A DNA stretch of 64,000 nucleotides, from contig LADN01000008.1 of the NCBI GenBank assembly GCA_000961585.1, forward strand, positions 1 through 64,000, read 5' to 3'. The translations under genes were made by a program, and so were the position numbers. This DNA comes from Peptococcaceae bacterium BRH_c4a (lineage in GTDB: Bacteria; Bacillota; Desulfotomaculia; Desulfotomaculales; Desulfocucumaceae). Of the stretch, positions 1,676 through 21,814 are shown in pieces (the first letter of the stretch is position 1; each line of letters begins with the position of its first letter). The notes beneath the pieces were generated by a model, which was not told the DNA's origin, did not search any database, and saw only the letters and a list, made by a program, of their open reading frames with translations.

Positions 1676-2677
1676 ATGGAATTTAAAATCGCACCCGAAG
1701 GAGTTAAGTTAAGGGATATTGATGTATGGGGTGACCTTTATGAGGCCATGGATAGGGGCACATCGGTAGAAGCGGTGATAGCCCGCGTGAGGCGTCCAAA
1801 TGATGAGGACAGGGACAGAGGGGAAGAGTGCTGGGAACTGGTCTTTGACAACAAGCCCGGGATAATAGGCCTGTGTTCAGTCAAAGAGTGCGGCCTGCCC
1901 GAGGGTACTCCCTTTAACGATTTTGTTGGCCAGAGGATTAACTGCAAAATCAGGAGGATTGACAAGAAAAACTCTGCAGTAGTGTGCAGCCGCAAAGAAG
2001 GAGTGGAAAGCTCAACAAACAGGTTAGTTGGTCAGTTGGAGCAGGGGGAAGAAATAAACGCCCTGGTCAGGGTGGTTAACCGCCATGTATATGTTGACAT
2101 AGGCGGTGGCACCATCGTGAGAATCATGCAGGGAAAAGCCAGGTTATCGGACGGTGTGCCCCTGGATGTGCAGTATGAGGTGGGGGCTATCATAAAAGTC
2201 ACCGTAACCGCCCTGGAAAAGGACAAAAAACTTATCGAGCTGGAACCCACAGACCCGTGGAAGGAAAAGGAGTACAAACGGGGCGAAGTAGTTGCCGGCC
2301 AGGTTATCCAGATAAGGGACAACCTGGCCTTTGTAAAGGTACGACAGGGACTGATTGGCCGCATTTATTACAGGCGAAACGACAAATACAGTGTAGGTGA
2401 CTATATACAAGTCCAGGTAATGGACTTTAGCCGTGACAAGCGCCGCCTGCACCTGATCTGTTATGACGCTAGGAGAGTAAGTGACCGCAGGCGGGAAAGG
2501 GCAAAAAACAGGTTAAGGCAAAATCCTTCCGGCGTAAATGTTGAAGGGAATAGCATCAAAACTCTTGGAGGCTTTGATACTGTCTCCAGCGATACCGTAA
2601 ACACCGAAAAGGAAGATGTTAAAAAACCGGTTAAAAGCAGTGCAAAGGCGTCTAAGGCGGTGGATGACGTTGTATAA
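1676..2677 (+). CDS. S1-like RNA-binding domain protein
   Basis: About 333 residues with three consecutive S1/OB-like segments, best seen at roughly residues 115-165 (VNRHVYVDIGGG) and 195-255 (GEVVAGQVIQIRDNLAFVKV, then VGDYIQVQVMDFSRDKRRLHL), followed by a basic, disordered tail. Proteins of this type bind single-stranded RNA. An ATG at 1667 is adjacent to its own purine run; the ATG at 1676 sits 9 bases after GAAAGG and is the better start. It is co-oriented with the coupling protein and overlaps the next gene by 14 bases, so it belongs to the mobile element. It is a candidate binder of the leader hairpins and structured RNAs in this element, which is inference only. Confidence 0.7.
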   Translation: MEFKIAPEGVKLRDIDVWGDLYEAMDRGTSVEAVIARVRRPNDEDRDRGEECWELVFDNKPGIIGLCSVKECGLPEGTPFNDFVGQRINCKIRRIDKKNSAVVCSRKEGVESSTNRLVGQLEQGEEINALVRVVNRHVYVDIGGGTIVRIMQGKARLSDGVPLDVQYEVGAIIKVTVTALEKDKKLIELEPTDPWKEKEYKRGEVVAGQVIQIRDNLAFVKVRQGLIGRIYYRRNDKYSVGDYIQVQVMDFSRDKRRLHLICYDARRVSDRRRERAKNRLRQNPSGVNVEGNSIKTLGGFDTVSSDTVNTEKEDVKKPVKSSAKASKAVDDVV

Positions 2678-3314
2678 GGACAGCGCATTTGCCCTTGGAA
2701 CGGCTATAAAACGGTTGCAGTATCCTCAAGAAACGAACAAAATAGAGCAATCAAGCAAGGTTTACGAGATAATGAAATATTTGGCCCAAGCCGAGTATCT
2801 TCCCGTTTCAACCATTGCAGAGCTTTTGGGTTGCAGGAGAATTGTTGCACAGAAGCTAATGGGGAAAATGTGGAAGTCAAGACTTGTAAAGTGCGTGGAA
2901 ATTGCTACTTATTCAAACCCGAAAATGCTATTCAAATTATGGATGCCGTCAACAATGGCATTGCCCAAAAATGCTATGGAGGCATGCAAATTGGCAATGC
3001 TGGGTACTTTTTACGGCAGGGCAAAAAACATGCTGGCGGAATTCGAGTGGGGGATAGTACGAAGCAAAGACAGAAAAACACTGACTGCGGAAATAGTATA
3101 TATGCCAGGCGGCGAAAAGGAAAAAACAAGGCTGGTTATAGATGCGCCCAGGCGCGGCGAAAAGCCAAACGCAGATGCTGACATATTTATTTTCCCCACT
3201 GTCGAGGAAGCAAAAACATTAACGCCGGCCGGCAAAAGGTATACGGCAGATCTGATTTTACTTAACAGAAATATTGACTTTAAAAATATGATATCAGATC
3301 CCGTGAATAGATAA
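2664..3314 (+). CDS. Winged-helix protein of mobile element, unknown function
   Basis: About 216 residues. The N-terminal part (VYEIMKYLAQAEYLPVSTIAELLG, then a second helix and KSRLVKCVEI) looks like a winged helix-turn-helix of the kind found in replication-relaxation and plasmid regulatory proteins. The remainder has no motif I recognise. The ATG at 2664 has AAGGCGG just upstream and overlaps the preceding gene by 14 bases, suggesting translational coupling; an in-frame ATG at 2616 would lie deep inside the upstream gene. Function is unassigned; DNA binding is inferred from the fold only. Confidence 0.55.
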   Translation: MTLYKDSAFALGTAIKRLQYPQETNKIEQSSKVYEIMKYLAQAEYLPVSTIAELLGCRRIVAQKLMGKMWKSRLVKCVEIATYSNPKMLFKLWMPSTMALPKNAMEACKLAMLGTFYGRAKNMLAEFEWGIVRSKDRKTLTAEIVYMPGGEKEKTRLVIDAPRRGEKPNADADIFIFPTVEEAKTLTPAGKRYTADLILLNRNIDFKNMISDPVNR

Positions 3315-3320
3315 AAACAG

Positions 3321-3366
3321 GGAGGTGAGGGCGGCAGGGATTATTCCCTTGCCGCCTATAATTTTG
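3321..3366 (+). promoter_or_regulatory. SD-hairpin-start leader 1
   Basis: GGAGGTGA at 3321-3328, then a stem GGCGGC(3330-3335)/GCCGCC(3351-3356) extended by AGGG/CCCT with one bulged T, then TTG at 3364. With the hairpin folded the spacing from GGAGG to the start is 11 bases. The same layout recurs at three more genes in this element. Confidence 0.55.
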
Positions 3367-4092
3367 GAACTGAAAAAGGATTATGAGACTGAATATCTCT
3401 GCGGCCAGTTGGACTGGGTAAGAGGCAGGAGGTACAATATACGGCCCGACCTGGATGAGGATATGGAGCCGGAAGTAAAAGGCTACCTCTACAAAGAAAC
3501 GACCACCGGTTTTTTCCGGGCCTGGGTCCTAAACGAACTGCATCTTGGAGTGACCAAAACGGTAAATGAATTGCGGGTGGCGGAAAAGGGGCAGATTATC
3601 CAAAAAACAGGATTACCGGAAGAAGAATGCCTGCATTTGATAGAAAAATGCGTGGTGATGGGGCTCCTCTGTGAAAACAAGGTGGTTTTTAAAAATGGTG
3701 AAAATATTCTTTTATACCTGGTGGACACAGGGGGGATATTCGCGCTGGAAGAGGCAGGCATTCCGTATCTTAAAGTAAATTATACAGTGGGAATTGACCA
3801 GAGACTGAAAATATACAGGAGAAACATTTTTTTGGTGGAGAATAACGTGTCCGAAGCAGTAAACTTGCACTTTTACGAAAATATAGTTGGGTTGCCCTTG
3901 GATAGAAATTACCGGGGAGCTACAATTCTGGTGGACATGAGAATTGCAGAAAAACTGGGGCTTAAAAGTCAGGTAATAAAGATGGCTGGTAGCATGGTAG
4001 AAGTGTATCACGTAAAAATATACGATTTATGCGGCAGGAGATGGATTGAGCCGACGGTAGAAAAAAATAACACGGTAGAAAAAAATATTTGA
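3364..4092 (+). CDS. Hypothetical protein with possible winged helix; start after an SD-hairpin leader
   Basis: About 243 residues, no recognised family. Residues around LPEEECLHLIEKCVVMGLL and the charged strand that follows could form a winged helix similar to the preceding protein. The frame is open from a GTG at 3325, but that codon overlaps the GGAGGTGA ribosome site at 3321-3328. A near-perfect hairpin (3330-3339 with 3346-3356) then intervenes, and an in-frame TTG at 3364 lies at the right distance if the hairpin is folded. I therefore prefer 3364. The last 16 codons include a tandem repeat of the sense ACGGTAGAAAAAAAT. The gene is immediately followed by the promoter of the structured RNA. 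Confidence 0.5.
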   Translation: MELKKDYETEYLCGQLDWVRGRRYNIRPDLDEDMEPEVKGYLYKETTTGFFRAWVLNELHLGVTKTVNELRVAEKGQIIQKTGLPEEECLHLIEKCVVMGLLCENKVVFKNGENILLYLVDTGGIFALEEAGIPYLKVNYTVGIDQRLKIYRRNIFLVENNVSEAVNLHFYENIVGLPLDRNYRGATILVDMRIAEKLGLKSQVIKMAGSMVEVYHVKIYDLCGRRWIEPTVEKNNTVEKNI

Positions 4093-4117
4093 CAAAAAAT
4101 GTTTTTAAAATTATTAT
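4089..4117 (+). promoter_or_regulatory. Sigma-A promoter of the structured RNA
   Basis: TTGACA at 4089-4094 and TATTAT at 4112-4117 with a 17-base spacer: a near-consensus housekeeping promoter. It begins inside the last codons of the upstream gene and points into a 650-base stretch with no plausible reading frame. Start of transcription would be near 4124. Confidence 0.75.
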
Positions 4118-4123
4118 GTTACT

Positions 4124-4768
4124 CAAGAATCAAATCACAAAAAATTGGCAATTTTGTTATTGAAATTTTTTCCCAAAACAAACATATGTTTATCAAGCAA
4201 GGTTTTTCAATCAGACAACTCCAATCTGATTCGGATGAAAGCTCCGGGATTATTGTAAAGGCGAAAAGCTTGCAGTAATCGAAAGACCAGGATTTACGGA
4301 AATTCCTTATGCGAAGAGCAGGTGTACCGTAAATAGCAGGGCGTTTTAAGCGAAGAGCGGCGCCAATATCCTTAAACAAGCGAAGAGCGTTTAAGGGCGT
4401 TTGACCCGGACGTAAGAATACGGGCAAAACGGCACATCAAAGCGAAGAGCAAGGATGTGACCTTGACTGACCCCACTATAACGGGGTGCATCGGTCCAAA
4501 AAAAGCGTGTGCAGGTAGGGAAGCCTTGCGGGAGACACGTGACCGTTGAAACGAGATATCCCTAAGCCGCATTATAGGCAAACCGGTACGCCTGATGCTG
4601 GCTGACTCGCAAGAACCGGATTTGTATACCCGTTTTACGGGAAGATATTTAGAGTGTACTTATAACAATACGGGCTTGGGTTCGTAGAGGGACAATTAGA
4701 GATCTGAGAGCAGGAAATGTGAAACACCAGAGTGTTTTGTTAATTACAAAATGCTTGTGGTGTTTTTT
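4124..4768 (+). ncRNA. Large ornate structured non-coding RNA (about 645 nt), class unknown
   Basis: A gene-free stretch bounded by a strong promoter (TTGACA-N17-TATTAT) and a Rho-independent terminator. It holds a series of hairpins whose stems differ in sequence but whose tips share the 9-mer GCGAAGAGC (4311, 4350, 4380, 4442) or GCGAAAAGC (4261). Enclosing stems are 4248-4255/4273-4280, 4293-4299/4327-4333, 4340-4343/4361-4364, 4370-4377/4389-4396 and 4433-4438/4454-4459. Further hairpins: CCCG 4405/CGGG 4421, CCCC 4471/GGGG 4483, CGTGT 4506/ACACG 4535, CCCG/CGGG near 4629-4641. Different stems around a constant loop argue for selection on RNA shape. Size and setting in a mobile element recall the ROOL and GOLLD giant RNAs, but I cannot match it to either. 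Confidence 0.75.
4722..4768 (+). terminator. Rho-independent terminator of the structured RNA
   Basis: AAACACCA (4722-4729) pairs with TGGTGTTT (4758-4765), and inside it TTTTGT pairs with ACAAAA around a TAATT loop; a T run follows at 4763-4768. It separates the RNA gene from ssb. Confidence 0.85.
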
Positions 4769-4803
4769 GCATTTTAATAAAAAAATCAAGGAGGTAATTA
4801 TCA

Positions 4804-5139
4804 ATGATGAACGAGGTATGGTTAATCGGAAGGCTCACAAAGGATCCGGAATTGAAGGAAACCCCTGGCGGCAAAAAGGTCACCAAAATGACCCTGGCAG
4901 TGGACCGTGATTTCAAGAACGGTGAAGGCGAACGCGAAGCTGATTTCATTGATGTTGTTGTATGGGAAAAGCTTGCGGAAAACTGTGAAAAGCACCTTGG
5001 GAAAGGGCGACTGGTATCCGTCAAGGGTCGGCTGCAAATCAGGGCCTACGATGACAACCAGGGCATCCGGAGGAGGGCCGCAGAAGTCACGGTAGAAAAA
5101 ATTCACTACCTAGACAGGCCCAAGGAGAGCGATCGGTAA
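4804..5139 (+). CDS. ssb: Single-stranded DNA-binding protein (mobile-element type)
   Basis: 111-residue OB-fold protein that coats single-stranded DNA during replication, repair or conjugative transfer. The start of the family pattern is clear (MNEVWLIGRLTKDPEL), followed by FIDVVVWEKLAENCEKHLGKG and the VSVKGRLQIRAYDD strand. It is shorter than chromosomal Ssb (about 160 residues) and lacks the acidic DDxPF tail that recruits partner proteins, ending instead in KESDR. AAGGAGGT lies 9 bases before the first ATG at 4804. It sits directly after the RNA terminator, so it needs its own promoter or read-through. Confidence 0.9.
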   Translation: MMNEVWLIGRLTKDPELKETPGGKKVTKMTLAVDRDFKNGEGEREADFIDVVVWEKLAENCEKHLGKGRLVSVKGRLQIRAYDDNQGIRRRAAEVTVEKIHYLDRPKESDR

Positions 5140-5198: not shown

Positions 5199-5423
5199 AT
5201 GGACCCGAGGCAAAAAGCAGTTGAAATTATTAAGGAACTTTCGGAAAAAAAAGTTATAGCTGCTTTATATATCCTGGAAATCCTGGCTAAAAAATGCGAG
5301 GAGGAAGATGGTATGATCAACGTACTGGAAGAAAACATCGAACTCCTGGGGAATTTAAAGGTTGCGGAATCGGCATTTGCTGACTGGGATAATGAAGAGG
5401 ATGCCGCCTATGACCAAATTTGA
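5199..5423 (+). CDS. Antitoxin partner of the MazF/PemK toxin
   Basis: About 74 residues, acidic, with a long amphipathic helix (KAVEIIKELSEKKVIAALYILEILAKK) resembling the short antitoxins that precede PemK-like toxins. The C-terminal segment (ESAFADWDNEEDAAYDQI) has the acidic, aromatic character that typically wraps around MazF-type toxins. The frame is open from 5139, but the ATG at 5199 has GAGGTGG at a good distance. It overlaps the toxin start by 14 bases. Assignment as antitoxin rests mainly on position. Confidence 0.6.
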   Translation: MDPRQKAVEIIKELSEKKVIAALYILEILAKKCEEEDGMINVLEENIELLGNLKVAESAFADWDNEEDAAYDQI

Positions 5424-5748
5424 ACCAGGAGAAGTAGTTTTAGTGCCTTTCCCATTCAGTGACCTGACGGGGGTTAAAAAGCGCCCCGCATTGGTTTTGG
5501 CTGACATAGAGGGTGGGCATGAAATTATCTGCTTAATGTTGACATCTGTGCAAATGAAATCTGAAAAATATGAGTATAACATTGCCAGTTGGAAAGAAGC
5601 AGGTTTATTAAAACCAACAGTTGCAAGAATTCACCGGCTGTTTACTTTAAACCAGAATATGGTGCATAAGAAACTTGGCCGGTTGGCAGCGGAAGAGTAC
5701 ACTATAATACTACAGAGAGTTATTAACTTGCTTACATACAAAATTTAG
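5410..5748 (+). CDS. MazF/PemK-family mRNA-interferase toxin
   Basis: 112-residue toxin that cleaves RNA when freed from its antitoxin. The family signature is complete: FEPGEVVLVPFPFSDLTGVKKRPALVL at the N-terminus (the PFPFSD-x-KxRPALVL motif), the strand IICLMLTSVQ, and the LLKPTVARIHRLFTL strand carrying the usual Arg. Several ATGs precede it; the one at 5410 follows GAAGAGG by 9 bases and gives the standard N-terminus. Translationally coupled to the antitoxin. Probably stabilises the mobile element. Confidence 0.9.
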   Translation: MTKFEPGEVVLVPFPFSDLTGVKKRPALVLADIEGGHEIICLMLTSVQMKSEKYEYNIASWKEAGLLKPTVARIHRLFTLNQNMVHKKLGRLAAEEYTIILQRVINLLTYKI

Positions 5749-8193: not shown

Positions 8194-9210
8194 ATGCATG
8201 ATCCGGTTCGCCAGCATCCGGAAGAAAAATTCAAAAGGGCAGGATTGTATGGAAATCCACCTTGTCCAATATGCGGTGGAAATTGGTGTGGATATAACAG
8301 CTTTTTATGCAGCTGTATGAGAGAGGATAAAGGCTCATTCAAGACTGTAATACAGCCCAAGACAGGTAAACCGGCATATCAACACTGGCTTAAACCAGGT
8401 ACCGTTAACTACAGTAAATCAGATGAACTGGATATGCCGATAGAAGTAATAGCGTCGGTGGAGAAACTGGACAGAGTGTACAGGGAACTCCTAAACCTCC
8501 TTTCATTGTATCAGGAACACAAGGAAGATCTTTTGCGCCGTGGCTTAACAGAAGGGGATATAAAGAAGAATGGATATAAGAGCATTCCCAAGATTATAAA
8601 ACCATGGGATATATGCAAGAAGCTCAAAGACATAGGGTACGACCTGTCTGGAGTCCCAGGTTTTTATAAAGCCGATGGGAAGTATGAAGGAACCTACTGG
8701 ACGTTCAGCTGGAAGCCCGGGTATTTTATACCGATGCTGGATGCAAAGGGCCGAATTCAAGCCCTACAAAGGAGAATCGAAAACCCTAAAGAAGGTGAGC
8801 CAAAGTACATGCTACTGAGCTCATCAGGAAAGAAAGGCGGAGGTAACAGCGGAACGCCTGCTCATGTGGCAAGACCTGCTGAGATCAGAGACAGAATAAT
8901 TTGGATAACAGAGGGACCGCTAAAAGCGGATATAGCAGCAAAATACTTAGGTGCTGTGGTTATCGGGCTAATGAGTGCGGGTACCTGGGTGCAGGCTTTA
9001 GAGGTAGTGGATGAGCTGAGTCCCGAAGAGGTTATAACAGCTTACGATATGGATTTCAAAACAAACAAATTGGTAAATAAACCTCTTGAGTTGCTAAAAG
9101 GTGAACTAAAAGAAAAGGGCCTAGTTGTACGTCAGGCCACATGGGACGAAGTAAAGGGCATAGATGATGCGCTGGTTGGAGGAAAGAAAATAACAATCGG
9201 GGGTCGCTAA
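8194..9210 (+). CDS. Primase-like protein: N-terminal zinc finger and Toprim-type (DUF3854-like) domain
   Basis: 338 residues. The N-terminus has a zinc-binding pattern (CPICGGNWCGYNSFLCSC, residues about 24-41). The C-terminal half has a Toprim-like order: IIWITEGPLKADIAAKYLG (Glu-Gly strand, near 8900-8945), GLMSAGTWVQAL, and VITAYDMDFKTN (Asp-x-Asp, near 9030-9055). This arrangement is found in primase-like proteins of phages and conjugative elements. TTG 8176 opens the frame but includes the ribosome site; ATG 8194 follows AAAGGAGGT. No helicase domain is present, so it would act with another helicase. Role in element replication is inferred. Confidence 0.7.
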   Translation: MHDPVRQHPEEKFKRAGLYGNPPCPICGGNWCGYNSFLCSCMREDKGSFKTVIQPKTGKPAYQHWLKPGTVNYSKSDELDMPIEVIASVEKLDRVYRELLNLLSLYQEHKEDLLRRGLTEGDIKKNGYKSIPKIIKPWDICKKLKDIGYDLSGVPGFYKADGKYEGTYWTFSWKPGYFIPMLDAKGRIQALQRRIENPKEGEPKYMLLSSSGKKGGGNSGTPAHVARPAEIRDRIIWITEGPLKADIAAKYLGAVVIGLMSAGTWVQALEVVDELSPEEVITAYDMDFKTNKLVNKPLELLKGELKEKGLVVRQATWDEVKGIDDALVGGKKITIGGR

Positions 9211-9211
9211 T

Positions 9212-9574
9212 ATGAAAATTATTCTCGAAAACGAATTGGAGAAGTGGGCCTGGGAAATAATGATGGCTGCTCATTACAAGTGGGAAAAAAACCACGGTAT
9301 GCTGTTGCTGGATCAGATGAATTGGTATTTTGAGGATATTTACGGGGAAGAAAGAGAAAAGATCATTAAGCAGGAGGTTGAACGCCGCTTGTTGGATGAC
9401 TTTGACGAAGAATTCTTTACTACTGAGGATGAATACGTGAAGTCTGGGTTGGAGAAATACACTGACGATTTTTTTGAGGGTGCTAACGAGGAAAAACAGG
9501 ATTTCGAGCGGGATCTATGCGAGGAGTATAGGGTAGCCCAGGAGGATATAGCCACTACCTGCCGGAGGATGTGA
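9212..9574 (+). CDS. Hypothetical acidic protein, possibly frameshifted at 3' end
   Basis: 120 residues, very acidic and helical (YGEEREKIIKQEVERRLLDDFDEEFFTTEDEYV), unknown family. It starts two bases after the preceding stop. After its stop, another frame stays open to 9669 and reads like protein (YLPEDVKDELRQIYYTFFNAPEKL), joining onto this gene near 9535-9570 if one base is added or lost. Either the gene once ended at 9669 or a second tiny gene exists without a clear start. Confidence 0.5.
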   Translation: MKIILENELEKWAWEIMMAAHYKWEKNHGMLLLDQMNWYFEDIYGEEREKIIKQEVERRLLDDFDEEFFTTEDEYVKSGLEKYTDDFFEGANEEKQDFERDLCEEYRVAQEDIATTCRRM

Positions 9575-9678
9575 AGGACGAACTGCGCCAGATATATTAC
9601 ACATTCTTTAATGCGCCGGAAAAATTGACGGTGATTTATAACGGTGAGGTTATCCAAGAAAGCAACTAATTAACCTTT

Positions 9679-9734
9679 AAGGAGGTGACCGCCGGGGGCA
9701 TTAAGCCCCGGCGGGGCCCCCGGCAAAGTAAATG
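9679..9734 (+). promoter_or_regulatory. SD-hairpin-start leader 3
   Basis: AAGGAGGTGA at 9679-9688, a perfect 9-bp stem GCCGGGGGC (9691-9699)/GCCCCCGGC (9716-9724), then ATG at 9732. Folded spacing is 11 bases. An alternative fold pairs 9689-9699 with GCCCCGGCGG at 9705-9714. Confidence 0.6.
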
Positions 9735-9908
9735 GAACAAACAAGTAATATAAAGGCTGAAAAAACGGCAACAGACCAAATAACAGTCATGGACGTTTAT
9801 GAGTCAGTCGACCGTTTTTTTGAAAAGAAACTCTATCCGTTCGTAGTAGTAGCAGTGCCGGTGTACCTTACAGCACACATTATACTGCTCATAATGAACA
9901 TCAAATAA
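9732..9908 (+). CDS. Small single-pass membrane protein (58 aa)
   Basis: 58 residues, starting MEQTSNIKAEKTATDQ and ending in one hydrophobic segment (YPFVVVAVPVYLTAHIILLI) followed by MNIK. Unknown family. It is in the same orientation and spacing as the surrounding element genes and has the same SD-hairpin-start leader as three others, which supports it as real. Topology would place the short C-terminus across the membrane. Confidence 0.55.
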   Translation: MEQTSNIKAEKTATDQITVMDVYESVDRFFEKKLYPFVVVAVPVYLTAHIILLIMNIK

Positions 9909-10403: not shown

Positions 10404-12227
10404 ATGAAAGAATATAAAGATTTCCACCTGTTTTGTGGTCTTGGCGGAGCAGCCCTTGGCTTTAAGAGAACAGTAGCAGAATACCGGGGTATGGTCGGAA
10501 GGTTTCACTGCATTGGTGGGATTGATGTTGATCCGGCGGCCTGTGAAGATTTTCAAAATCTGGTCGGGGTTCCGGCAACTAGGATTGATCTCTTTACCAG
10601 AAGGGATTATGTGGCTTTTCACGGCAAAGAACCACCGACTGATTGGAGAGAAGCTACCTCTGAGGAGATCCGAGCAGCCGCCCAGTATGAGTATCCTGAT
10701 GTGGTGTTCTTATCACCGCCATGCAAGGGCTTCAGCGGACTGCTACCAAGTAAGAAGGCTGCCAGTGAGAAATACCAGGCATTAAATCGGTTGGTGGTCA
10801 GGGGCTTAAAGCTTACCCTCGAAGCCTTTTCCGATGACCTGCCTGCTTGCATCCTTCTGGAGAATGTTCCCCGTATTACAACCCGGGGTTCATGGTTATT
10901 GAAACAAGTTAAGAACCTATTGAAAAATGCCGGATATGAAATACATCCTCCGAAAGATCAGGACGGTTACCATGACTGCGGCGAACTGGGCGGCCTTGGC
11001 CAACATCGTAAGAGATATCTGTTAATTGCCAGGTTGCCAGAAAAGATGACCAGCTTTATTTACAAGCCCCCGAAGCGGCGAGTGAAATCCATCGGGGAAA
11101 TAATAGGCCCCTTGCTGATGCCCGACGACCCGGGCGCCGGTCCTATGCATAGGTTACCAAGGCTGAAGTGGTTGACATGGGTGCGCTTGGCACTAATCCC
11201 GGCCGGCGGTGACTGGCGAGATCTGGAGAAATTGGCCCCGGAGCAGTATCGGCTTGAATACGTTCCCCGGGGTGCAGGTTCTTATGGTGTACAGGACTGG
11301 GGCAAACCAGGCTCAACAGTGGTTGGGAGTGCATATATTAAAGGCAGTAACCCTGTTGCAGTGGCAGATCCGAGATTATCGCCAAGCATAGGCCAATCAT
11401 ACAAAGGCAGTGCAGGACTTATGGGGGTGCTTGATTGGGGACAACATTCAAAAGCAGTGACAGGAAGAGCGGCGGCGACCAGCAGCAACTGTCCAGCAAC
11501 AGTGGCCGATCCAAGACTTCCACAATGTGACAACCGGTTTCACAATAAGTACCAACTCCACTCGTGGGATGAACCAGCAGCCACAGTAACAGGTATCGCA
11601 GACATACAGGCTGGAGCACCATCCATTGCGGACCCCAGAACAGGTTTTAAAGGCTGTACCCACACCGCCATTTACAGGGTGGTTAAATGGGACAACCCGG
11701 CCGGAACTGTGACAGGTGCTATGAGGCCGAATAACGGTGCACCTTCAGTGGCCGACCCGAGAATGAACTGCAGCCCCCGGAACGGCACCATGGGTGTTCA
11801 GACCTGGGACCAGCCCGGGGCCACTGTAATCGGAGCTGGCGATATCCATGCGGGCACGGCAGCCGTAGCCGACCCCAGAATGCCGACCGACAATGACCGT
11901 CCCGATCCGCCCCCGGTGATTATCTCACTTGATGGGACGTGGCACCGGCCACTGACGACCCTGGAGTTGGCAGCCCTACAGGGATTCCCTGTTACCCTGG
12001 AGGACGGAAGTCCCATGGTACTGAGCGGGAAAAGTGACGCTAGGTGGCGGGAGAGAATCGGAAACGCAGTGCCCCCGCCTGCGGCCAAGGCAATAGCGGA
12101 GCAGATATTGAATGCACTTCTGGTCAGTGAATTTAATGAATGGACTTTGGGGTCAACTGGTGTGTGGGTAACACCGCGAAATGAAGCATTTCCGCATGCT
12201 GAGATTGTTACTGTTAACAAGGATTAG
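10404..12227 (+). CDS. DNA (cytosine-5) methyltransferase with tandem internal repeats
   Basis: 607 residues. Motif I is HLFCGLGGAALGF, motif IV SPPCKGFSG with the catalytic Cys (about bases 10717-10740), motif VI LENVPRI, motif VIII-like GQHRKRYLLIA, and motif X RERIGNAVPPPAAKAIAEQI at the end. Between them, about residues 285-500, lie five copies of a 30-40 residue unit of the form W-(x)-P-x-TV(T/I)G-...-VADPR, where target-recognition sequence is expected. The normal family is 330-450 residues, so the repeats account for the extra length. ATG 10404 follows AAGGAG; the earlier start at 10371 is less likely. On a mobile element it probably protects DNA against host restriction; no cognate nuclease gene is adjacent. 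Confidence 0.9.
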   Translation: MKEYKDFHLFCGLGGAALGFKRTVAEYRGMVGRFHCIGGIDVDPAACEDFQNLVGVPATRIDLFTRRDYVAFHGKEPPTDWREATSEEIRAAAQYEYPDVVFLSPPCKGFSGLLPSKKAASEKYQALNRLVVRGLKLTLEAFSDDLPACILLENVPRITTRGSWLLKQVKNLLKNAGYEIHPPKDQDGYHDCGELGGLGQHRKRYLLIARLPEKMTSFIYKPPKRRVKSIGEIIGPLLMPDDPGAGPMHRLPRLKWLTWVRLALIPAGGDWRDLEKLAPEQYRLEYVPRGAGSYGVQDWGKPGSTVVGSAYIKGSNPVAVADPRLSPSIGQSYKGSAGLMGVLDWGQHSKAVTGRAAATSSNCPATVADPRLPQCDNRFHNKYQLHSWDEPAATVTGIADIQAGAPSIADPRTGFKGCTHTAIYRVVKWDNPAGTVTGAMRPNNGAPSVADPRMNCSPRNGTMGVQTWDQPGATVIGAGDIHAGTAAVADPRMPTDNDRPDPPPVIISLDGTWHRPLTTLELAALQGFPVTLEDGSPMVLSGKSDARWRERIGNAVPPPAAKAIAEQILNALLVSEFNEWTLGSTGVWVTPRNEAFPHAEIVTVNKD

Positions 12228-12888: not shown

Positions 12889-13314
12889 ATGTGGTGTGAA
12901 TGGCAAGAGAACGACAATCAGGTTTATAACCGGTTAATGGGTCAGTTTGTCAATCATGTGGCTAAGTATTCCAAGGGAGGCAGTTATGAGGCACGAAGGA
13001 TGAAGTTTAACAAATTCAAAACATTTATTGCTTTTTTGAGCAATCACTATACTACTGAAGACATAAGAAATATTCAGCCTAAACACATAGCGGCATTTAT
13101 TAGATACCGGAGAAACGGTGGTTATGCTACGATAACCATGCTTTCTGACTTATCGGTAATTCGGTGGTGGTTTAATCAGATACCATGGAAAAGATTTGAC
13201 ATGCCTGATAACAGCGAAATTTTTAAGCTGGAGGAAAGGTTAAATGAAAGAGCATACGTTACGGAAATCAAGGAAAAATACAGACGCCTCAAAAGGCGTA
13301 GAGGGCGTATATAA
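12889..13314 (+). CDS. Integrase core-binding (SAM-like) domain protein without catalytic domain
   Basis: 141 residues matching only the N-terminal DNA-binding domain of tyrosine recombinases (a four-helix region: FNKFKTFIAFLSNHYTTEDIRNIQPKHIAAFIRYRR, then ATITMLSDLSVIRWWFNQIPW). It ends in a very basic tail (KEKYRRLKRRRGRI). CAGGAGG precedes the ATG. It overlaps the full integrase gene by 71 bases in another frame. It may be an accessory DNA-binding factor or the remains of a duplicated integrase. Confidence 0.6.
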   Translation: MWCEWQENDNQVYNRLMGQFVNHVAKYSKGGSYEARRMKFNKFKTFIAFLSNHYTTEDIRNIQPKHIAAFIRYRRNGGYATITMLSDLSVIRWWFNQIPWKRFDMPDNSEIFKLEERLNERAYVTEIKEKYRRLKRRRGRI

Positions 13315-14209
13315 AAACCTTACGGTTCAGTTTGACAAAACGTTCAGGAGGGCAGTGGAAGCATCAGAGGGTAAAGTAAGCATAAAGACCCACCACCGTT
13401 ATAGAGAAAGCATGAAAGAAATAATGCGTTTTTGTGCCCGGGAATTCAGGCTACAAAAACTATCGAAGATAGCTGATAAACATGTTATTGCTTATGTTAA
13501 TCACCGGAGAGACCAAGAAACAGCTGAAAAAACTATCAAAAATGATATTGCTGCATTAAGATTTTATCGGCGTTACATGGAAGATAGAAACGGAGAATTA
13601 ATTGACAATAGAGGTATTGGATTGAAATCAACTCCTGATGGTCGGAAGGATCGGGCCTGGCGGGAAGATGAATACGAAAAAATGCTAAAACTGACAAGAG
13701 AATTAAACCGGAAGGATGTAGAGCTTGCTATAAGGCTGGCCAGACATGCTGGTTTAAGGGTACATGAAATTACAAGGCTGGACGGGATAAAGGCTGAACA
13801 AGCAATAGAAACCGGCTGGCTGAATGTAAAGGGAAAGGGTGGAAAAGAGAGGCAGGTTCCTTTAAGCCAGGAGGCAAAACAGGTACTATTGGAAGCCTGC
13901 GATTTACTTCCGGATAAAAAACTTAAATTACTGGTGCCGAAGGATGAAAAAACACATCTGGTAATTAAACGGATTCAGGGATTTATAAGGCGACACAGGG
14001 AAAAGGTTTTTGAAAAGGACCACCGGACAGTGAATTTAACCATACACGGCCTGCGCCATTTATATGCCAGGGGAGAATATAGCAAAAGAGAAAAAGTTCA
14101 ATCATACAAAGGCAAAAAGTGCAAATTTGACAGAAAAGCGTTGAGGGAAGTTTCAGAGTTGCTGGGCCATGGCAGGAAAGACGTGACAAGAATATATTTG
14201 GCAAGGTAA
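13244..14209 (+). CDS. Tyrosine recombinase/integrase
   Basis: 321 residues. SAM-like DNA-binding domain at residues 25-125, then the catalytic domain with all expected residues: Arg in ARHAGLRVHE, Lys in KGKGGKER, HGLRH (His-x-x-Arg type), GHGR, and the nucleophile Tyr in VTRIYLAR at the very C-terminus. Such enzymes integrate and excise mobile elements. The product ends seven residues after the usual nucleophile helix begins, as in phage-type integrases. It follows the domain-only protein, with overlap suggesting coupled translation. It is a candidate integrase for the conjugative element at 1-15 kb; I did not find its attachment sites. Confidence 0.85.
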   Translation: MKEHTLRKSRKNTDASKGVEGVYKNLTVQFDKTFRRAVEASEGKVSIKTHHRYRESMKEIMRFCAREFRLQKLSKIADKHVIAYVNHRRDQETAEKTIKNDIAALRFYRRYMEDRNGELIDNRGIGLKSTPDGRKDRAWREDEYEKMLKLTRELNRKDVELAIRLARHAGLRVHEITRLDGIKAEQAIETGWLNVKGKGGKERQVPLSQEAKQVLLEACDLLPDKKLKLLVPKDEKTHLVIKRIQGFIRRHREKVFEKDHRTVNLTIHGLRHLYARGEYSKREKVQSYKGKKCKFDRKALREVSELLGHGRKDVTRIYLAR

Positions 14210-15739: not shown

Positions 15740-16819
15740 ATGGATTTTTATTCCTTTCCCACAGTAAGAGGCGTCCAATCTGGCCGAGAATATTTTGTTA
15801 CAATGTGCCCCTTACGCCTTGTACCAAGACTCTTTACCATAGAAAAAAAAATAATGCCTCCTGAACTCAGGGCACAAAGAGTAATTAATAAATCAAGAAT
15901 ACCCTCTATATGTTCGTATATTGTCAACAATCCTAAGAACTATGTTTTTCCTTCCATGGTCGTTTCAATTGATTCTGAAGTAGAATTTACCCCTTTTTCT
16001 GATGATGTAACCCACTTCAACCTTGGTACATTAAAGATCCCTATTTCCGCCAAGCTAGTTATTAATGATGGTCAGCATCGTAGGGCCGCAATCGAAGAGG
16101 CATTAAAACAAAACCCCTCTCTTGGCAATGAATCTATTTCTGTAGTATTTTTTATCGACTGGGGATTAAAACACTCCCAACAAATGTTTGCTGATTTGAA
16201 TCGATATGCTGTCCGACCAAATAAATCAATAAGTATCTTATTTGATTATAGAGATCCATTCTCCAGGCTGACATTGGATATAATCAATGAGATAAAATTT
16301 TTTCATGATTATACGGACCTGGAAAAAACAGATATATCCAGTATTTCGACAAAAATTTTTGCTTTAAGTGGAATTTTTTTTGCAACAAAGGAATTACTCA
16401 ATGATAAAAAGAAACTAATGTCTGAGGAAAGAAAAAAACTGGCTGTAAGTTTTTGGGGAGAGGTTTTTTTAAACATAGAGGAATGGCAACAAATAGAAAG
16501 AAACCTTATTAGCCCATTTGAATTACGCAATAATTTTATTTGCTCACATACAGTTGCCTTAATGGCATTGGGTAGGGCTGGTAGAAGCCTAATTAATGAA
16601 TACCCAGAAAATTGGAATGACCATCTCTCTAAAATTAGCAGTATGAATTGGCACAGAAATAATCTTCAGTGGGAAGGTAGAGTAACTATCAGAGGAAAAA
16701 TATCTAATTCCCGTAACAATGTTCTCCTTTTATGCAATGTCATAAAGAGAAAATTAGGACTCAACCTTAATGAGGAGGAGCAGGGTGCTGAAAGTGCCTT
16801 TGTGAAAGATGAGCAATAA
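15740..16819 (+). CDS. dndB: DndB, DGQHR-domain protein of the phosphorothioation system
   Basis: 359 residues. The family hallmark DGQHRRAA lies at about residues 109-116, followed by FIDWGLKHSQQMFADLNRYAVRPNKSISILFD. In characterised systems DndB is not essential for sulfur modification but affects its level and regulation. GGGGTGAG precedes the ATG by a good distance. It opens the dnd operon and overlaps dndC by 11 bases. Base composition is clearly AT-rich compared with the mobile-element genes upstream and the helicase operon downstream. Confidence 0.9.
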   Translation: MDFYSFPTVRGVQSGREYFVTMCPLRLVPRLFTIEKKIMPPELRAQRVINKSRIPSICSYIVNNPKNYVFPSMVVSIDSEVEFTPFSDDVTHFNLGTLKIPISAKLVINDGQHRRAAIEEALKQNPSLGNESISVVFFIDWGLKHSQQMFADLNRYAVRPNKSISILFDYRDPFSRLTLDIINEIKFFHDYTDLEKTDISSISTKIFALSGIFFATKELLNDKKKLMSEERKKLAVSFWGEVFLNIEEWQQIERNLISPFELRNNFICSHTVALMALGRAGRSLINEYPENWNDHLSKISSMNWHRNNLQWEGRVTIRGKISNSRNNVLLLCNVIKRKLGLNLNEEEQGAESAFVKDEQ

Positions 16820-18266
16820 AGACAAAAAAATTTCGAAAATAACTCAAGAAAACATAAATGAATTGTATGAACGCATACGCACTATTTACCTCTCTGACGA
16901 AATACCCTGGGTTATAGGATTCAGCGGAGGTAAAGACTCATCAGCGTCTCTACAATTAGTATGGTATGCCATCAAGGATTTATCCACTGAACAACGTAAA
17001 CATAAGCTAATCCATGTTATAAGTACTGACACTTTTGTAGAGTCACCTGTGGTTGCAGCATGGGTTAATTCGTCGTTAGAGCGCATGAGGAAGGCTGCTG
17101 AAGAACAAGACATGCCTATTTTGGTTCACAAGTTAACTCCCAACATATCCGATTCATTCTGGGTCAACATCATAGGCAGAGGTTACCCAGCTCCCCGACC
17201 TAATTTTAGGTGGTGCACTGACCGTCTAAAAATTAAACCATCCAACAATTTCATCATTGATGTTGTAGCGAAACATGGAGAAGCTATATTAGTCCTTGGG
17301 ACAAGAAGTGCAGAGAGTTCTCGTCGTGCTGCAAACATGAAAAAATATCAGCAAATGAGGGTTCGAGACTGGTTGAGCCCCACAAAAACCCTTTCTAATT
17401 GTTTGACTTATACCCCCATAGAGGATTGGTCTAATGATGATGTTTGGATATATTTAATGCAATACCCTAACCCCTGGGGCCAAATGAACAAAGATTTATT
17501 AACAATGTACCAAGGAGCATCGGCTGATGGGGATTGTCCATTGGTTGTTGACACAAACACACCCAGCTGCGGAAGTAGTAGATTCGGCTGCTGGGTCTGT
17601 ACAATGGTAAAAGAAGATAAATCTATGCAAGCGATGATTCAAAACGACGAAGAAAAGATTTGGATGACTCCATTACTTAATTTCAGGAACAAAATTGGTA
17701 ATTTTGATGACCGTGATAAACGTGAGTATAGAAGAATGAGTGGCAAAGTTCTTATTTTTAATAATAGGGCTGTTCATGGACCCTATAAGAAATGGTACCG
17801 TGAAGAACTTCTAAGGGATATACTTACAATAGAAAAGGAAGTACAACAAATTGGCCCCCAAGGCTTTGAGAATTTAAGAATAATATCTGATGAAGAGTTG
17901 CGTTGGATAAGGAAAATATGGGTTGTTGAAAAACACGAATTTGATGATTCGCTCCCACAAATATACGAAGAAATAACTGGCAAACCATATAAGTTCACTG
18001 ATTCTTTAAGTAGCTCTGTTTTTGGAAAAAAGGAATGGGTCTTACTTTATGAAGTTTGTAATGGAGACGAGGATTTATTTGGTCTACAAGCCAACCTTTT
18101 AGATATCTCTCAGCAATACTCTATTTTTACAATTAAAAAGGGGATTCTACAAGAATTTGAAGATACAATAAAGCGTTTTTATTATGAAAACGAAGAAGAA
18201 GCTGTAAAGGTGAACATTGAAATCGTAGAGAGAAAAAGATATATTGAAGAAAAAACACAAATATAA
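16809..18266 (+). CDS. dndC: DndC, PAPS-reductase-like sulfurtransferase of DNA phosphorothioation
   Basis: 485 residues. The PP-loop SGGKDSS is at about residues 38-44 and activates the DNA backbone with ATP in the known system. A cysteine cluster, CPLVVDTNTPSCG followed by FGCWVC (about residues 244-265), fits the [4Fe-4S] site. NFRWCTDRLK is the other conserved Cys segment. The long C-terminal part (RRMSGKVLIFNNR, then IRKIWV) is typical of DndC. It overlaps dndB by 11 bases and is followed by dndD after 24 bases. Confidence 0.93.
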   Translation: MSNKDKKISKITQENINELYERIRTIYLSDEIPWVIGFSGGKDSSASLQLVWYAIKDLSTEQRKHKLIHVISTDTFVESPVVAAWVNSSLERMRKAAEEQDMPILVHKLTPNISDSFWVNIIGRGYPAPRPNFRWCTDRLKIKPSNNFIIDVVAKHGEAILVLGTRSAESSRRAANMKKYQQMRVRDWLSPTKTLSNCLTYTPIEDWSNDDVWIYLMQYPNPWGQMNKDLLTMYQGASADGDCPLVVDTNTPSCGSSRFGCWVCTMVKEDKSMQAMIQNDEEKIWMTPLLNFRNKIGNFDDRDKREYRRMSGKVLIFNNRAVHGPYKKWYREELLRDILTIEKEVQQIGPQGFENLRIISDEELRWIRKIWVVEKHEFDDSLPQIYEEITGKPYKFTDSLSSSVFGKKEWVLLYEVCNGDEDLFGLQANLLDISQQYSIFTIKKGILQEFEDTIKRFYYENEEEAVKVNIEIVERKRYIEEKTQI

Positions 18267-18290
18267 TCCGATATGTGGGAGTAGATTGAT

Positions 18291-20303
18291 TTGTTAATCA
18301 AAGAAATTCGTTTCAACAACTTAGGTCCATTTAGAGGCGAACATGTTTTAACTCTGTCTACAGACAGGGACCGTCCAATAACTTTAATAGGCGGGATGAA
18401 CGGAGCCGGCAAAACTACAATTCTAGAAGCGGTCTTAGTTCTTCTTTATGGTCAACGCAGTCAGGTATGGCGAAAAAGCTCTTCATATAAAGATTATATT
18501 CAAAGCTGCATGAATAACAATGTTTCTAATAATGAAGATACTTGGATACAAATATCCCTATTAATAAAAAGTAAATCGGATAATAATACGAATTCGGACA
18601 CATACATAGATATGTCTGCACGTAGATCATGGCGGATAGATAATGGGAAGCTAATAGAGACAGTTAATGTATGGAAGAATGGTAGAGAAGATGACTATCT
18701 TGCATCTAACTGGGATTTATACGCTGAAGAACTTGTGCCTTATGGTGTTTCTGGATTATTCTTTTTTGATGGTGAAAAAATAAGCAAACTTGCAGAAGAA
18801 GATGAGGGCAGTAAAACTCTTAAAACAGCTATTTCATCACTATTAGGAATTGACTTAATTGATCGTCTCATTTCAAATTTAAGAAGAATAATTTCAAATC
18901 ATGATTGGAAGATCTCGCATAATAAAGAAGACGAAAGAATCAATGATATTCAAACAAGAATAGAAGAGACCATCAGAGAACATCTTAAAATTAGCCAGAA
19001 CGTAATTAGCTTGGACACAACAATAGGACATAATAAATCCAAATTGAAAGAAAAAGAAGAGGTTTATCTTCAACAAGGTGGTCACTATTTTGACAATAGA
19101 AATAAACTGATAGACGAAAAGAACAGATTAAATGAACTTATAAGTAATACAAAAGGTTCTATGATTCAATTATCTTCAGGTCCGCTTCCCCTACATATTG
19201 TAAAACCACTTTTAGAAAGGATTAAAAAATCTATTAGTTGTGAAGATAATATACGGCAAGCGAAAACAATATTACCTTTCCTTGAAGAGTACAACATACA
19301 AATACTAGACATATTAGCTTCCAGTGCAAGTGATTCTATATTAGAAAATATTCGTTCCAGTATGGATTGTAAGGAAAGCATATTAGTTAGATTATCAGAA
19401 AAAGATCCTTTATTTCCACATTATCAAATTACTCATCAACTTAATTCAATAAATAAACTTGCTACAACCCTAAAAAAAGACACTGCCCGACTAATTGAAA
19501 AACATGAAAAATATCAGTATGAGCTAGATCAAGTTGAAGTACAATTACATTTCGATGTTGATGAGAGTGAAGTATCTAGTATTCTTCAAGACATAAAAAA
19601 ATTGACAAAACATATTTTGCAACTTGAAGAGCAAAAATTATCTATATTAAAAGAAAAGAACGAGATTGAAAAACAACTAGGATTGCTTGAGCAGGAGCAA
19701 AAATGTTTATTGAAGAAGAAACTAGAGAATGAATTGGAAGTAGAAGGTGCGCAGAGAATTGTCAGATATGCATTTAAATCAATAGAAGTTTTATCGACTT
19801 TTAAGGAAAGGTTAATAATTAAAAAAATTAGTTTATTAGAAGAGAATATAAACAAGGCCTTCATGAAGCTTATTGGTAAAAAATCCCTCGTTTCATTGAT
19901 TAAAATCGACCCCTTGACGCTTAGAATGTTTTTGGTTCACACCAATGGAAATGAAATTCCTAAATCCCAACTATCAGAGGGTGAAAAACAGATGCTTGCC
20001 TTGGCCTTCTTATGGGGTTTAGCAGAATCATCTGGACATACGCTTCCAGTGATTATTGATACTCCTATGGCCAGACTAGATTCAACACATAGAATTAATT
20101 TCATCGAGAATTATTTACCCTCCTCAGGCAGGCAAGTAATCGTACTTTCAACTGATGAAGAAATAAAGAAATCACATATAGAGATATTAGAAAGTAAAAT
20201 TGGTAAAATGTTTCTACTTGTCTTTGATGATGAACTAGGCGATACGGAGATAAAGCAAGGTTATTTCTCGGAGGTTAATTCATATGATAGTAAGGCAAGT
20301 TAG
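18291..20303 (+). CDS. dndD: DndD, SMC/Rad50-like ATPase
   Basis: 670 residues. Walker A GGMNGAGKTTI at about residues 35-44, a long central coiled coil (about 200-530), the ABC signature LSEGEKQML near residue 561 and Walker B VIIDTPMARLDSTHR near 588. This is the DNA-nicking/ATPase partner needed for sulfur insertion by DndC-E. TTG start preceded by GTGGGAG. The coiled coil carries no CxxC hook that I can see, unlike Rad50. It overlaps dndE by 20 bases. Confidence 0.93.
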   Translation: MLIKEIRFNNLGPFRGEHVLTLSTDRDRPITLIGGMNGAGKTTILEAVLVLLYGQRSQVWRKSSSYKDYIQSCMNNNVSNNEDTWIQISLLIKSKSDNNTNSDTYIDMSARRSWRIDNGKLIETVNVWKNGREDDYLASNWDLYAEELVPYGVSGLFFFDGEKISKLAEEDEGSKTLKTAISSLLGIDLIDRLISNLRRIISNHDWKISHNKEDERINDIQTRIEETIREHLKISQNVISLDTTIGHNKSKLKEKEEVYLQQGGHYFDNRNKLIDEKNRLNELISNTKGSMIQLSSGPLPLHIVKPLLERIKKSISCEDNIRQAKTILPFLEEYNIQILDILASSASDSILENIRSSMDCKESILVRLSEKDPLFPHYQITHQLNSINKLATTLKKDTARLIEKHEKYQYELDQVEVQLHFDVDESEVSSILQDIKKLTKHILQLEEQKLSILKEKNEIEKQLGLLEQEQKCLLKKKLENELEVEGAQRIVRYAFKSIEVLSTFKERLIIKKISLLEENINKAFMKLIGKKSLVSLIKIDPLTLRMFLVHTNGNEIPKSQLSEGEKQMLALAFLWGLAESSGHTLPVIIDTPMARLDSTHRINFIENYLPSSGRQVIVLSTDEEIKKSHIEILESKIGKMFLLVFDDELGDTEIKQGYFSEVNSYDSKAS

Positions 20304-20661
20304 ATTATCAAATCAAGCCAAGAATCAATTGGCTAGGTTGAAATTTAAAACTGGAATCATGAATTGGAATATATTGTGTAGATGGGCTCTTTGCTTATCG
20401 TTAAATGAACCTACAATTCCTCCAGATATTGAGATTATAACTGATAGCAATGTAGAAATGAACTGGCACACTTTTGGTGGTGAGTACGAAGAGATATATG
20501 ACGCCTTAGTGCGCCAACGTTGCATTGACGATGGTTTGGGAATAGACCCAGAGGTTTTGGCTAAATATTTTAAATTGCACCTACATAGAGGCATAGCCTA
20601 TTTGGTTACAAAAGACTTTGTTAACTCAACCAGCGATCTTTTGCGGTTAGCAATTGAATAA
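20284..20661 (+). CDS. dndE: DndE
   Basis: 125 residues, the usual DndE size. Begins MIVRQVRLSNQAKNQLARLKFKTGIMNWNILCRWALCLSLNEPT, typical for this small protein, which in known systems binds nicked double-stranded DNA and is needed for modification. The C-terminal helix (LHRGIAYLV) fits. CGGAGG lies before the ATG inside the dndD 3' end. It overlaps the frame upstream of dndA. Confidence 0.9.
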   Translation: MIVRQVRLSNQAKNQLARLKFKTGIMNWNILCRWALCLSLNEPTIPPDIEIITDSNVEMNWHTFGGEYEEIYDALVRQRCIDDGLGIDPEVLAKYFKLHLHRGIAYLVTKDFVNSTSDLLRLAIE

Positions 20662-20683
20662 ATTTTATAAAGAGGGTTCTCGT

Positions 20684-21814
20684 ATGACAGTATATCTCGA
20701 CTATAATGCAACAACTCCAATTCATCTGGACGTACTGGAAGAAATGATATCAGTGTATCGCCATAATTATGGCAATGCTGGAAGCAATACACATATTTAT
20801 GGCAAATCTGCTAGAAATGCTGTAGAAAAAGCCCGTACACGGGTGGCTTCGGCTTTAGGAATAGAAAAAAACGAGGTTATTTTTACTAGTGGTGCTACCG
20901 AAAGTAATAACCTTGCAATTCTAGGATTAGCTAAATGGGGGGAAAGTGTTGGTCGCAAGCATATTATTTCGACTACAATAGAACACAAAGCTGTTTTAGA
21001 GCCTCTAAATTACCTTGCTAAAAAAGGTTTCCATATAGAATTAGTACCAGTTAATAAAGATTGCAGAGTTAATCCAGAAGATGTTATTAACCATATCCGT
21101 CCCGACACTCTTATGGTTAGTGTTATGCATGCAAATAACGAGACCGGTACAATTCAGCCTGTTAGTGAGATAGGAAACGCCCTTAAAGATACCCCCGTAT
21201 ACTTTCACATTGACGCAGCCCAGACTTTTGGTAAACTACATCCTGAACTTGATAAGTTAAATTACGACTTGTTAAGTATCAGTGGACATAAAATCCATGG
21301 ACCCCAAGGAATTGGCGCCCTTATTATGAAACGTAAAAATTATAAACGACCACCAGTACAGCCTGTAGTCTTTGGAGGCGGTCAAGAAGGGGGTTTAAGG
21401 CCTGGTACTCTTCCTGTTGCACTTATTGTAGGTCTAGGAAAGACAGCTGAAGTAGCTCAATCTAATTATAATAAAAATATAGAAAATTATCACCTGATAA
21501 AAGAAGATATTATAAATCAATTGCAGAGCGTTAAATATGTAATTAACGGAGCTAGAGATCACTCACTACCGAATTGTATAAATATAAGCTTTCCAGGCAT
21601 AGATTCTGAGGCATTGATGGTAGCTACAAAAGAAGATATAGCAATCTCTAATGGTTCGGCATGTACCTCCGCTGAATATACGCCCAGCCACGTTTTATCG
21701 GCTATGGGTCTTGATGATGCAATCATTCAAAGTTCAATCAGAATTTCATGGGGCTTTGGAATAAATAGTATTAATTTAAACTCGCTGATTTGCTTTATTA
21801 AAAACAATCAGTAA
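20684..21814 (+). CDS. dndA: DndA, cysteine desulfurase (IscS/NifS family)
   Basis: 376 residues. Supplies sulfur from cysteine. LDYNATTPIH at the N-terminus, the PLP-binding Lys in ISGHKIHGPQG (about residue 202), the aspartate segment HIDAAQTFGK and the catalytic-loop Cys in NGSACTSAEYTPSHVL (about residue 327). The TTG at 20654 opens the frame but ATG 20684 follows AGAGGG and gives the family N-terminus. It is the last gene, whereas dndA is separate or first in several known clusters. No dndF, dndG or dndH follows. Confidence 0.93.
   Translation: MTVYLDYNATTPIHLDVLEEMISVYRHNYGNAGSNTHIYGKSARNAVEKARTRVASALGIEKNEVIFTSGATESNNLAILGLAKWGESVGRKHIISTTIEHKAVLEPLNYLAKKGFHIELVPVNKDCRVNPEDVINHIRPDTLMVSVMHANNETGTIQPVSEIGNALKDTPVYFHIDAAQTFGKLHPELDKLNYDLLSISGHKIHGPQGIGALIMKRKNYKRPPVQPVVFGGGQEGGLRPGTLPVALIVGLGKTAEVAQSNYNKNIENYHLIKEDIINQLQSVKYVINGARDHSLPNCINISFPGIDSEALMVATKEDIAISNGSACTSAEYTPSHVLSAMGLDDAIIQSSIRISWGFGINSINLNSLICFIKNNQ

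Follow-up and report, generated by a model that had tools for sequence, protein, structure and literature searches.

Large RNAs of mobile elements and arrays of protein-binding hairpins are both known kinds of molecule. ROOL, GOLLD and OLE are large (600-1000 nt), ornate RNAs, the first two of which occur on mobile elements, and the giant RNAs known so far make use of A-minor contacts and of kissing loops (PMC12286853). Protein-titrating RNAs such as CsrB and RsmZ consist of an array of hairpins in which one loop motif is carried by unrelated stems. The operator hairpin of the MS2 coat protein combines a stem, a 5' bulged A, two base pairs and a small loop, an arrangement that recurs in the hairpin tips described here. 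Several known complexes contain a protein that recognises a GNRA-like pentaloop with a looped-out base, and the GNRA-like loop variants of boxB, the N peptide site of lambdoid phages, pair with cognate N peptides (PMC12550061).

The RNA described here is encoded in a 64,000-nt stretch of DNA from Peptococcaceae bacterium BRH_c4a (the window). It differs from ROOL, GOLLD and OLE in bearing repeated identical tips whose class shifts along with a protein gene upstream, a feature not described for them in the literature consulted. From CsrB and RsmZ it differs in its loops, which are GNNRA rather than GGA (GGA is absent from 82 of the 84 tip loops), in having a separate conserved core, and in a putative partner that is encoded by the element; no csrA-type partner was noticed there. 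The window loops GAAGA and GAAAA are GNRA-like as in boxB, and are the two lambda boxB loops, but here 5-9 copies stand on a terminated RNA, with a 5' A bulge below two G-C pairs and no N protein. The + strand of 4089-4768 contains no match within one mismatch to boxA, which in a nut site lies upstream of boxB on the same strand. Unlike the MS2 operator, the hairpins have another loop sequence and size, form arrays of 5-9 and come with no coat protein. Kink-turn, MS2-operator and hammerhead-core readings of the tip gave a poor fit by eye.

The original prediction had called the RNA undescribed, and this held. At the gathering threshold none of the Rfam 15 families, which include ROOL, GOLLD, OLE, HEARO and raiA, matched the window or nine homologous loci, and below the threshold there were only chance microRNA matches (E up to 5). 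The open-access literature gave no description of the RNA; one in a subscription paper could have been missed. What is new, to our knowledge, is a conserved core with element-specific tips that are exchanged together with a protein gene.

The RNA gene and its surroundings

A sigma-70 type promoter (TTGACA-N17-TATTAT) with 11 of the 12 consensus bases lies at 4089-4117 on the + strand, as had been predicted. An exact TTGACA is present at the same place in most relatives, and the RNA has its own TTGACA promoter upstream in 14 of the 19 loci examined. The intrinsic terminator that had been proposed was likewise found (4722-4768, + strand). It consists of an 18-bp hairpin (about 4722-4764) with TTTTTT after it, and is conserved in G049, G063 and G068; a simple terminator scan did not list it. 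The RNAs of relatives usually have a terminator of their own, as read by eye. With its start inferred from the promoter and its end from the terminator, the large structured non-coding RNA would span 4123-4768 on the + strand. These approximately 645 bases contain no conserved reading frame, in agreement with the prediction, since only small ORFs are present and the differences from the nearest homologue are mostly 1- or 2-base indels. The RNA of the window folds better than its dinucleotide shuffles (z of -4.9 and -5.3); the same test was weaker for the G063 RNA (z only -1.5). As judged from sequence, the region 4089-4768 is a stand-alone structured RNA gene, from promoter to terminator, of a family that belongs to conjugative elements.

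The RNA is preceded on the + strand by genes for a VirD4/TraG-type coupling protein (62-1657; PF02534, 6e-49), an S1-domain RNA-binding protein (1667-2677) and two predicted winged-helix proteins, A (2616-3314), the predicted partner of the tips, and B (3325-4092). It is followed by ssb (4804-5139, + strand; PF00436, 7e-33). Across the loci virD4 comes first and the S1 protein second; A and/or B and then the RNA come next, ahead of ssb or a toxin-antitoxin pair. The fixed neighbours of the RNA are the upstream genes, that is virD4, the S1 protein and the winged-helix proteins A/B. Structure searches with A and B gave winged-helix domains only and no solved full-length relative. The RNA had been predicted to lie on a conjugative element next to ssb; the conjugative element was borne out and the tie to ssb was not, because a toxin-antitoxin or other gene follows in several relatives. 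The next gene is not ssb in G030, G046, G047 and G342.

In relatives, a PemK/MazF-type toxin-antitoxin pair with its own copy of a terminator moves between the RNA and ssb. In the window it lies after ssb (5362-5748), in L007 at about 7590-7063, and in L008 and L085 after the RNA. Further along the window a Dnd (DNA phosphorothioation) cluster (15740-21814) adjoins a tyrosine integrase gene (13244-14209); it encodes DndB, a PAPS-reductase-like protein (DndC type), an SMC/AAA protein (DndD type) and a class-V aminotransferase (DndA type).

A class-wide DNA search gave matches of 69-79% identity in Desulfotruncus alcoholivorax (G049), D. arcticus (G068) and Peptococcaceae bacterium BRH_c8a (G063); those in G046, G028 and G016 were short. 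Many further loci were gathered with neighbouring proteins as anchors. The RNA was found at 25 loci in 24 genomes, its tips being of one kind and lying downstream of A or B, and by these sequence matches its carriers are conjugative elements from sulfate-reducing and related clostridia. No copy was found in phage and plasmid records or in viral contigs. Matches of model R1 in G136, G009, G300 and G199 were rejected as chance, being without tips; those in G136, G009 and G300 sit among ordinary chromosomal protein genes. Pattern matches in Geomonas, Anaerolineae, Lindowbacteria, Nitriliruptorales, Blautia, Oscillospiraceae and an uncultured clostridium had no tip cluster and were also discarded. 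In G018 (L127) protein A and the RNA are about 3.5 kb apart, apparently because of an insertion. The G016 RNA (L010:5440-5850) carries, besides simple tips, three copies of a ~65-nt module (CGNNAUACCCU..UCCGACAYAAGCGAUGAGCGGGAAGYGU), and an IscB-like insertion (a relative of RNA-guided nucleases, family assigned by eye) lies near the element in two contigs (L010:2421-4193 and the end of L084).

Conserved core and repeated hairpin tips

The RNA is composed, by sequence comparison, of a conserved 3' core and a 5' array of hairpins with identical, element-specific tips. At least five further hairpins had been noted after the tips, and further hairpins do follow, with core helices at about 4403-4603. 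On the + strand the core motif GACCC..CG..GGGCAAAAC forms helix a (4403-4425), and the conserved 3' core (4461-4603) comprises hairpin c and helices d (4492-4496/4541-4545), f (4506-4510/4535-4539) and g (4565-4572/4595-4603). The loop of hairpin c is CUAUAAC in the window and CUAGAAC in relatives. With eight RNAs, 85% of the cells in the core helices were paired, against 36-46% when the arms were slid by 1-3 columns, and there were 27 double changes; the covariation score was 0.372 against at most 0.115 in the control. One core covariation analysis used hand-chosen arms. RNAalifold on a MAFFT alignment of all 13 cores returned only 12 pairs, distant arms being misaligned, and smaller sets were used. 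G-U pairs are frequent and A-C mismatches rare in the core pairs on the + strand, which identifies this strand as the folded one. The covariation check proposed with the original prediction thus came out in its favour, with compensatory changes in the core helices; homologues keep the stems, in the form of cis pairing and a covarying core.

A covariance model, R2, trained on eight other RNAs without the window's subgroup, recovered the window weakly (E 0.02) and three of its closest relatives, the G063, G049 and G068 loci, well (L020, 1.7e-5; L007, 3.6e-5; L021, 2.3e-4). It also found three elements whose tips belong to another class (L080, 5e-7; L081, 3e-6; L083, 5.5e-4), which indicates that core and tips evolve separately.

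The 5' hairpins of the RNA, ATCAGA..TCTGAT and CGGATGAAAGCTCCG (4210-4246, + strand), are conserved in G046, G028 and G084. Five tip hairpins follow on the same strand. The first (4249-4279) has the loop GAAAA within GCGAAAAGC (4261-4269). The other four have the loop GAAGA within GCGAAGAGC and lie at 4292-4335 (motif at 4311-4319), 4339-4364 (4350-4358), 4370-4396 (4380-4388) and 4431-4460 (4442-4450). The window thus has four GC-GAAGA-GC tips and one GC-GAAAA-GC tip, and all five 2-bp tips are predicted to be paired with a probability of 0.78-0.99, as expected from the proposal of five hairpins with unlike stems and shared tips. Pairing prediction was weak for tip 3 of G049 and of G063. In close relatives the first tip acts as a separate class. 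The whole 3.49-Mb genome contains 16 GCGAAGAGC sites, 4 of which fall inside 140 bases of the RNA.

Among 13 RNAs, at least five contiguous flanking pairs were present at 53 of 72 tips, which are not independent observations as related RNAs have hairpins in common. When the 3' flanks were swapped between hairpins, 11.4 +/- 2.9 tips were paired (maximum 21 in 2000), and at sites with the same motif outside the RNA only 4 of 42 had as many flanking pairs. Cis pairing of the stems is therefore beyond chance, and the idea of a large structured RNA with variable stems and constant tips was confirmed. The tips share a plan in which a stem is followed by 1-4 unpaired bases on the 5' side (mostly A), two G-C pairs and a GNNRA pentaloop. 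The first loop base was G and the last A in 84 of 84 tips, with G or A at the fourth place; since the search motif itself demanded R at place 4 and A at place 5, the other positions alone count as free evidence. In terms of sequence, a GNRA-like GNNRA pentaloop, the two G-C pairs that carry it and an A-rich 5' bulge make up the tip, and five to nine hairpins per RNA share one such tip.

Concerted tip change and protein A

The tip variants seen are GAAGA, GAAAA, GCUGA, GUCGA, GAUGA and GNRA tetraloops. The window uses GAAGA, G063 has GAAAA throughout, G068 has GCUGA in three tips, and G046, G342 and others have GAUGA. Two tips of one RNA had an identical loop in 0.60 of the pairs, against 0.23 after shuffling (maximum 0.33 in 5000). 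By this comparison of sequences, the tips within one RNA change together from element to element. For example, the five homologous hairpins that carry GAAGA in G055 have GUCGA/GACGA in its relative G078; four of the five tips changed both the loop and the 5' bulge (A to AA) and the fifth the loop only.

Four elements (G034, G035, G080 and the second element of G030) have C(NGN)G triloop hairpins instead. The core model recovered three of the four, which have the same core with other tips. The G030 genome contains two elements, one with a GNNRA RNA and one with a triloop RNA. Protein A is encoded in all GNNRA elements (in G016 on another contig), and the four triloop elements have B and lack A. 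Neither A nor B occurs at 14 loci with a more distant S1 protein, and most of these, the ones checked, have no GNNRA array. The association between tip class and A follows element relatedness.

Shorter RNAs at the same place also carry hairpin arrays. Candidate relatives have a UUGYGG-like loop in G022 and in the second element of G049 and a CCRRCAG-like loop in G281. Short arrays with a constant loop (CCRRCAG.. or UUGYGG) occupy the same gene position at L092 ~8690-9240 (minus strand), L091 ~9615-9860 (minus strand) and L143 ~1745-2000. In distant elements, arrays in which each hairpin is followed by the same linker (CAAGTC; GCAATCCGGCC) lie downstream of the S1 protein, at L095 ~10990-11250 and L137 ~4500-4800 (both minus strand).

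The comparison of G046 with G084 bears directly on the tie between tips and A. Their S1 proteins are 97% identical and their RNA cores agree at 299 of 312 positions, A is 77% identical, and four of five tips differ, with GAUGA pentaloops in G046 and GNRA tetraloops (GUGA, GAGA) in G084. DNA identity drops at the start of the A gene and recovers past the tip domain, so A and the tips have been replaced in a single block. Such joint replacement is predicted for a matched protein-tip pair. Adjacency could also explain it, as a single recombination tract that spans A and the adjoining tip domain could move the two with no functional tie between them.

Possible roles of the hairpin array

The RNA gene and its structure, the constant neighbourhood, the shared change of tips and their replacement along with A can all be read from the DNA. 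Our best explanation, which we hold with about even confidence, is that the RNA offers several docking sites to a protein encoded by the same element, most likely A. The array would bind several copies of one such protein, most probably the winged-helix A, and in elements without A protein B would be the docked partner. Constant tips on flanking stems that pair in cis count in favour of docking; that A has no known RNA-binding fold beyond the winged helix counts against it. The docked protein might be titrated away from its targets, or it might be assembled with the S1-domain protein into a ribonucleoprotein for transfer or maintenance. Binding, partner and outcome, whether titration or assembly, are what we infer from these patterns. 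No convincing second set of tip hairpins that could serve as titration targets was found near the RNA or in the flank-read part of the genome-wide sites, and the mRNAs of the element gave no candidate with the same hairpins, which weakens simple titration. A wider reading is offered tentatively as a lesser possibility. The RNA may be a modular scaffold whose tips form an element-specific address code read by the winged-helix protein; tips and protein would be exchanged as a cassette while the core is kept, and each element would have its own RNA-protein assembly, with no cross-reaction between elements in one cell.

An assembly of RNA only is unlikely. As in OLE, ROOL and GOLLD, copies would form a homo-oligomer in which each presents GNRA-like tips that dock, through A-minor contacts, into receptors on its neighbours. 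Tips of the GNRA type are typical A-minor donors, the size and ornateness are similar to those of the giant RNAs, and G084 has GNRA tetraloops where G046 has pentaloops. However, C(NGN)G triloops, which are not GNRA loops, accompany the same core in other elements, no receptor was found, and the tip type follows the upstream protein, a shift that appears to fit protein docking better than RNA-only assembly. It is also quite improbable that a host protein is what the RNA captures, as a decoy or sponge acting by CsrB-like titration or against host defence, with tips that track the host target and not a protein of the element. Multi-site arrays are a known design of protein-titrating RNAs, and the neighbourhood (ssb, ArdC, RadC, toxin) resembles the early-expressed region of conjugative elements, but the tips are not GGA motifs, the two elements in the single G030 genome differ in tip class, and protein A and the tips were replaced together.

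Folded single-stranded DNA promoters are reported to precede ssb in conjugative plasmids (PMC9849209, PMC11541004), and ssb, ArdC-like, RadC and toxin-antitoxin genes lie downstream here. A leading-region structure of this Frpo-like type, driving ssb and anti-defence genes as DNA enters the recipient, is nevertheless very improbable. The region lies between a consensus double-stranded promoter and a terminator, so that transcription would stop before ssb, the next gene is not ssb in G030, G046, G047 and G342, and size and covariation go beyond the needs of a promoter hairpin. Least probable is a cis-acting leader or attenuator of ssb that senses a protein and controls terminator read-through, for which the terminator about 35 bases before the ssb start and plausible feedback by SSB or S1 would speak, but the downstream gene varies while the RNA stays, and 650-1000 nt with a second conserved core would be unusual.

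The docking explanation provides an RNA-protein pair that is defined and can be tested, and tip-protein pairs that are orthogonal by nature could be used as RNA tags. The question raised is what conjugative elements need such an RNA for. The locus adds an uncatalogued class of large bacterial RNA that comes with a built-in clue to its function, as its tips follow one protein gene.
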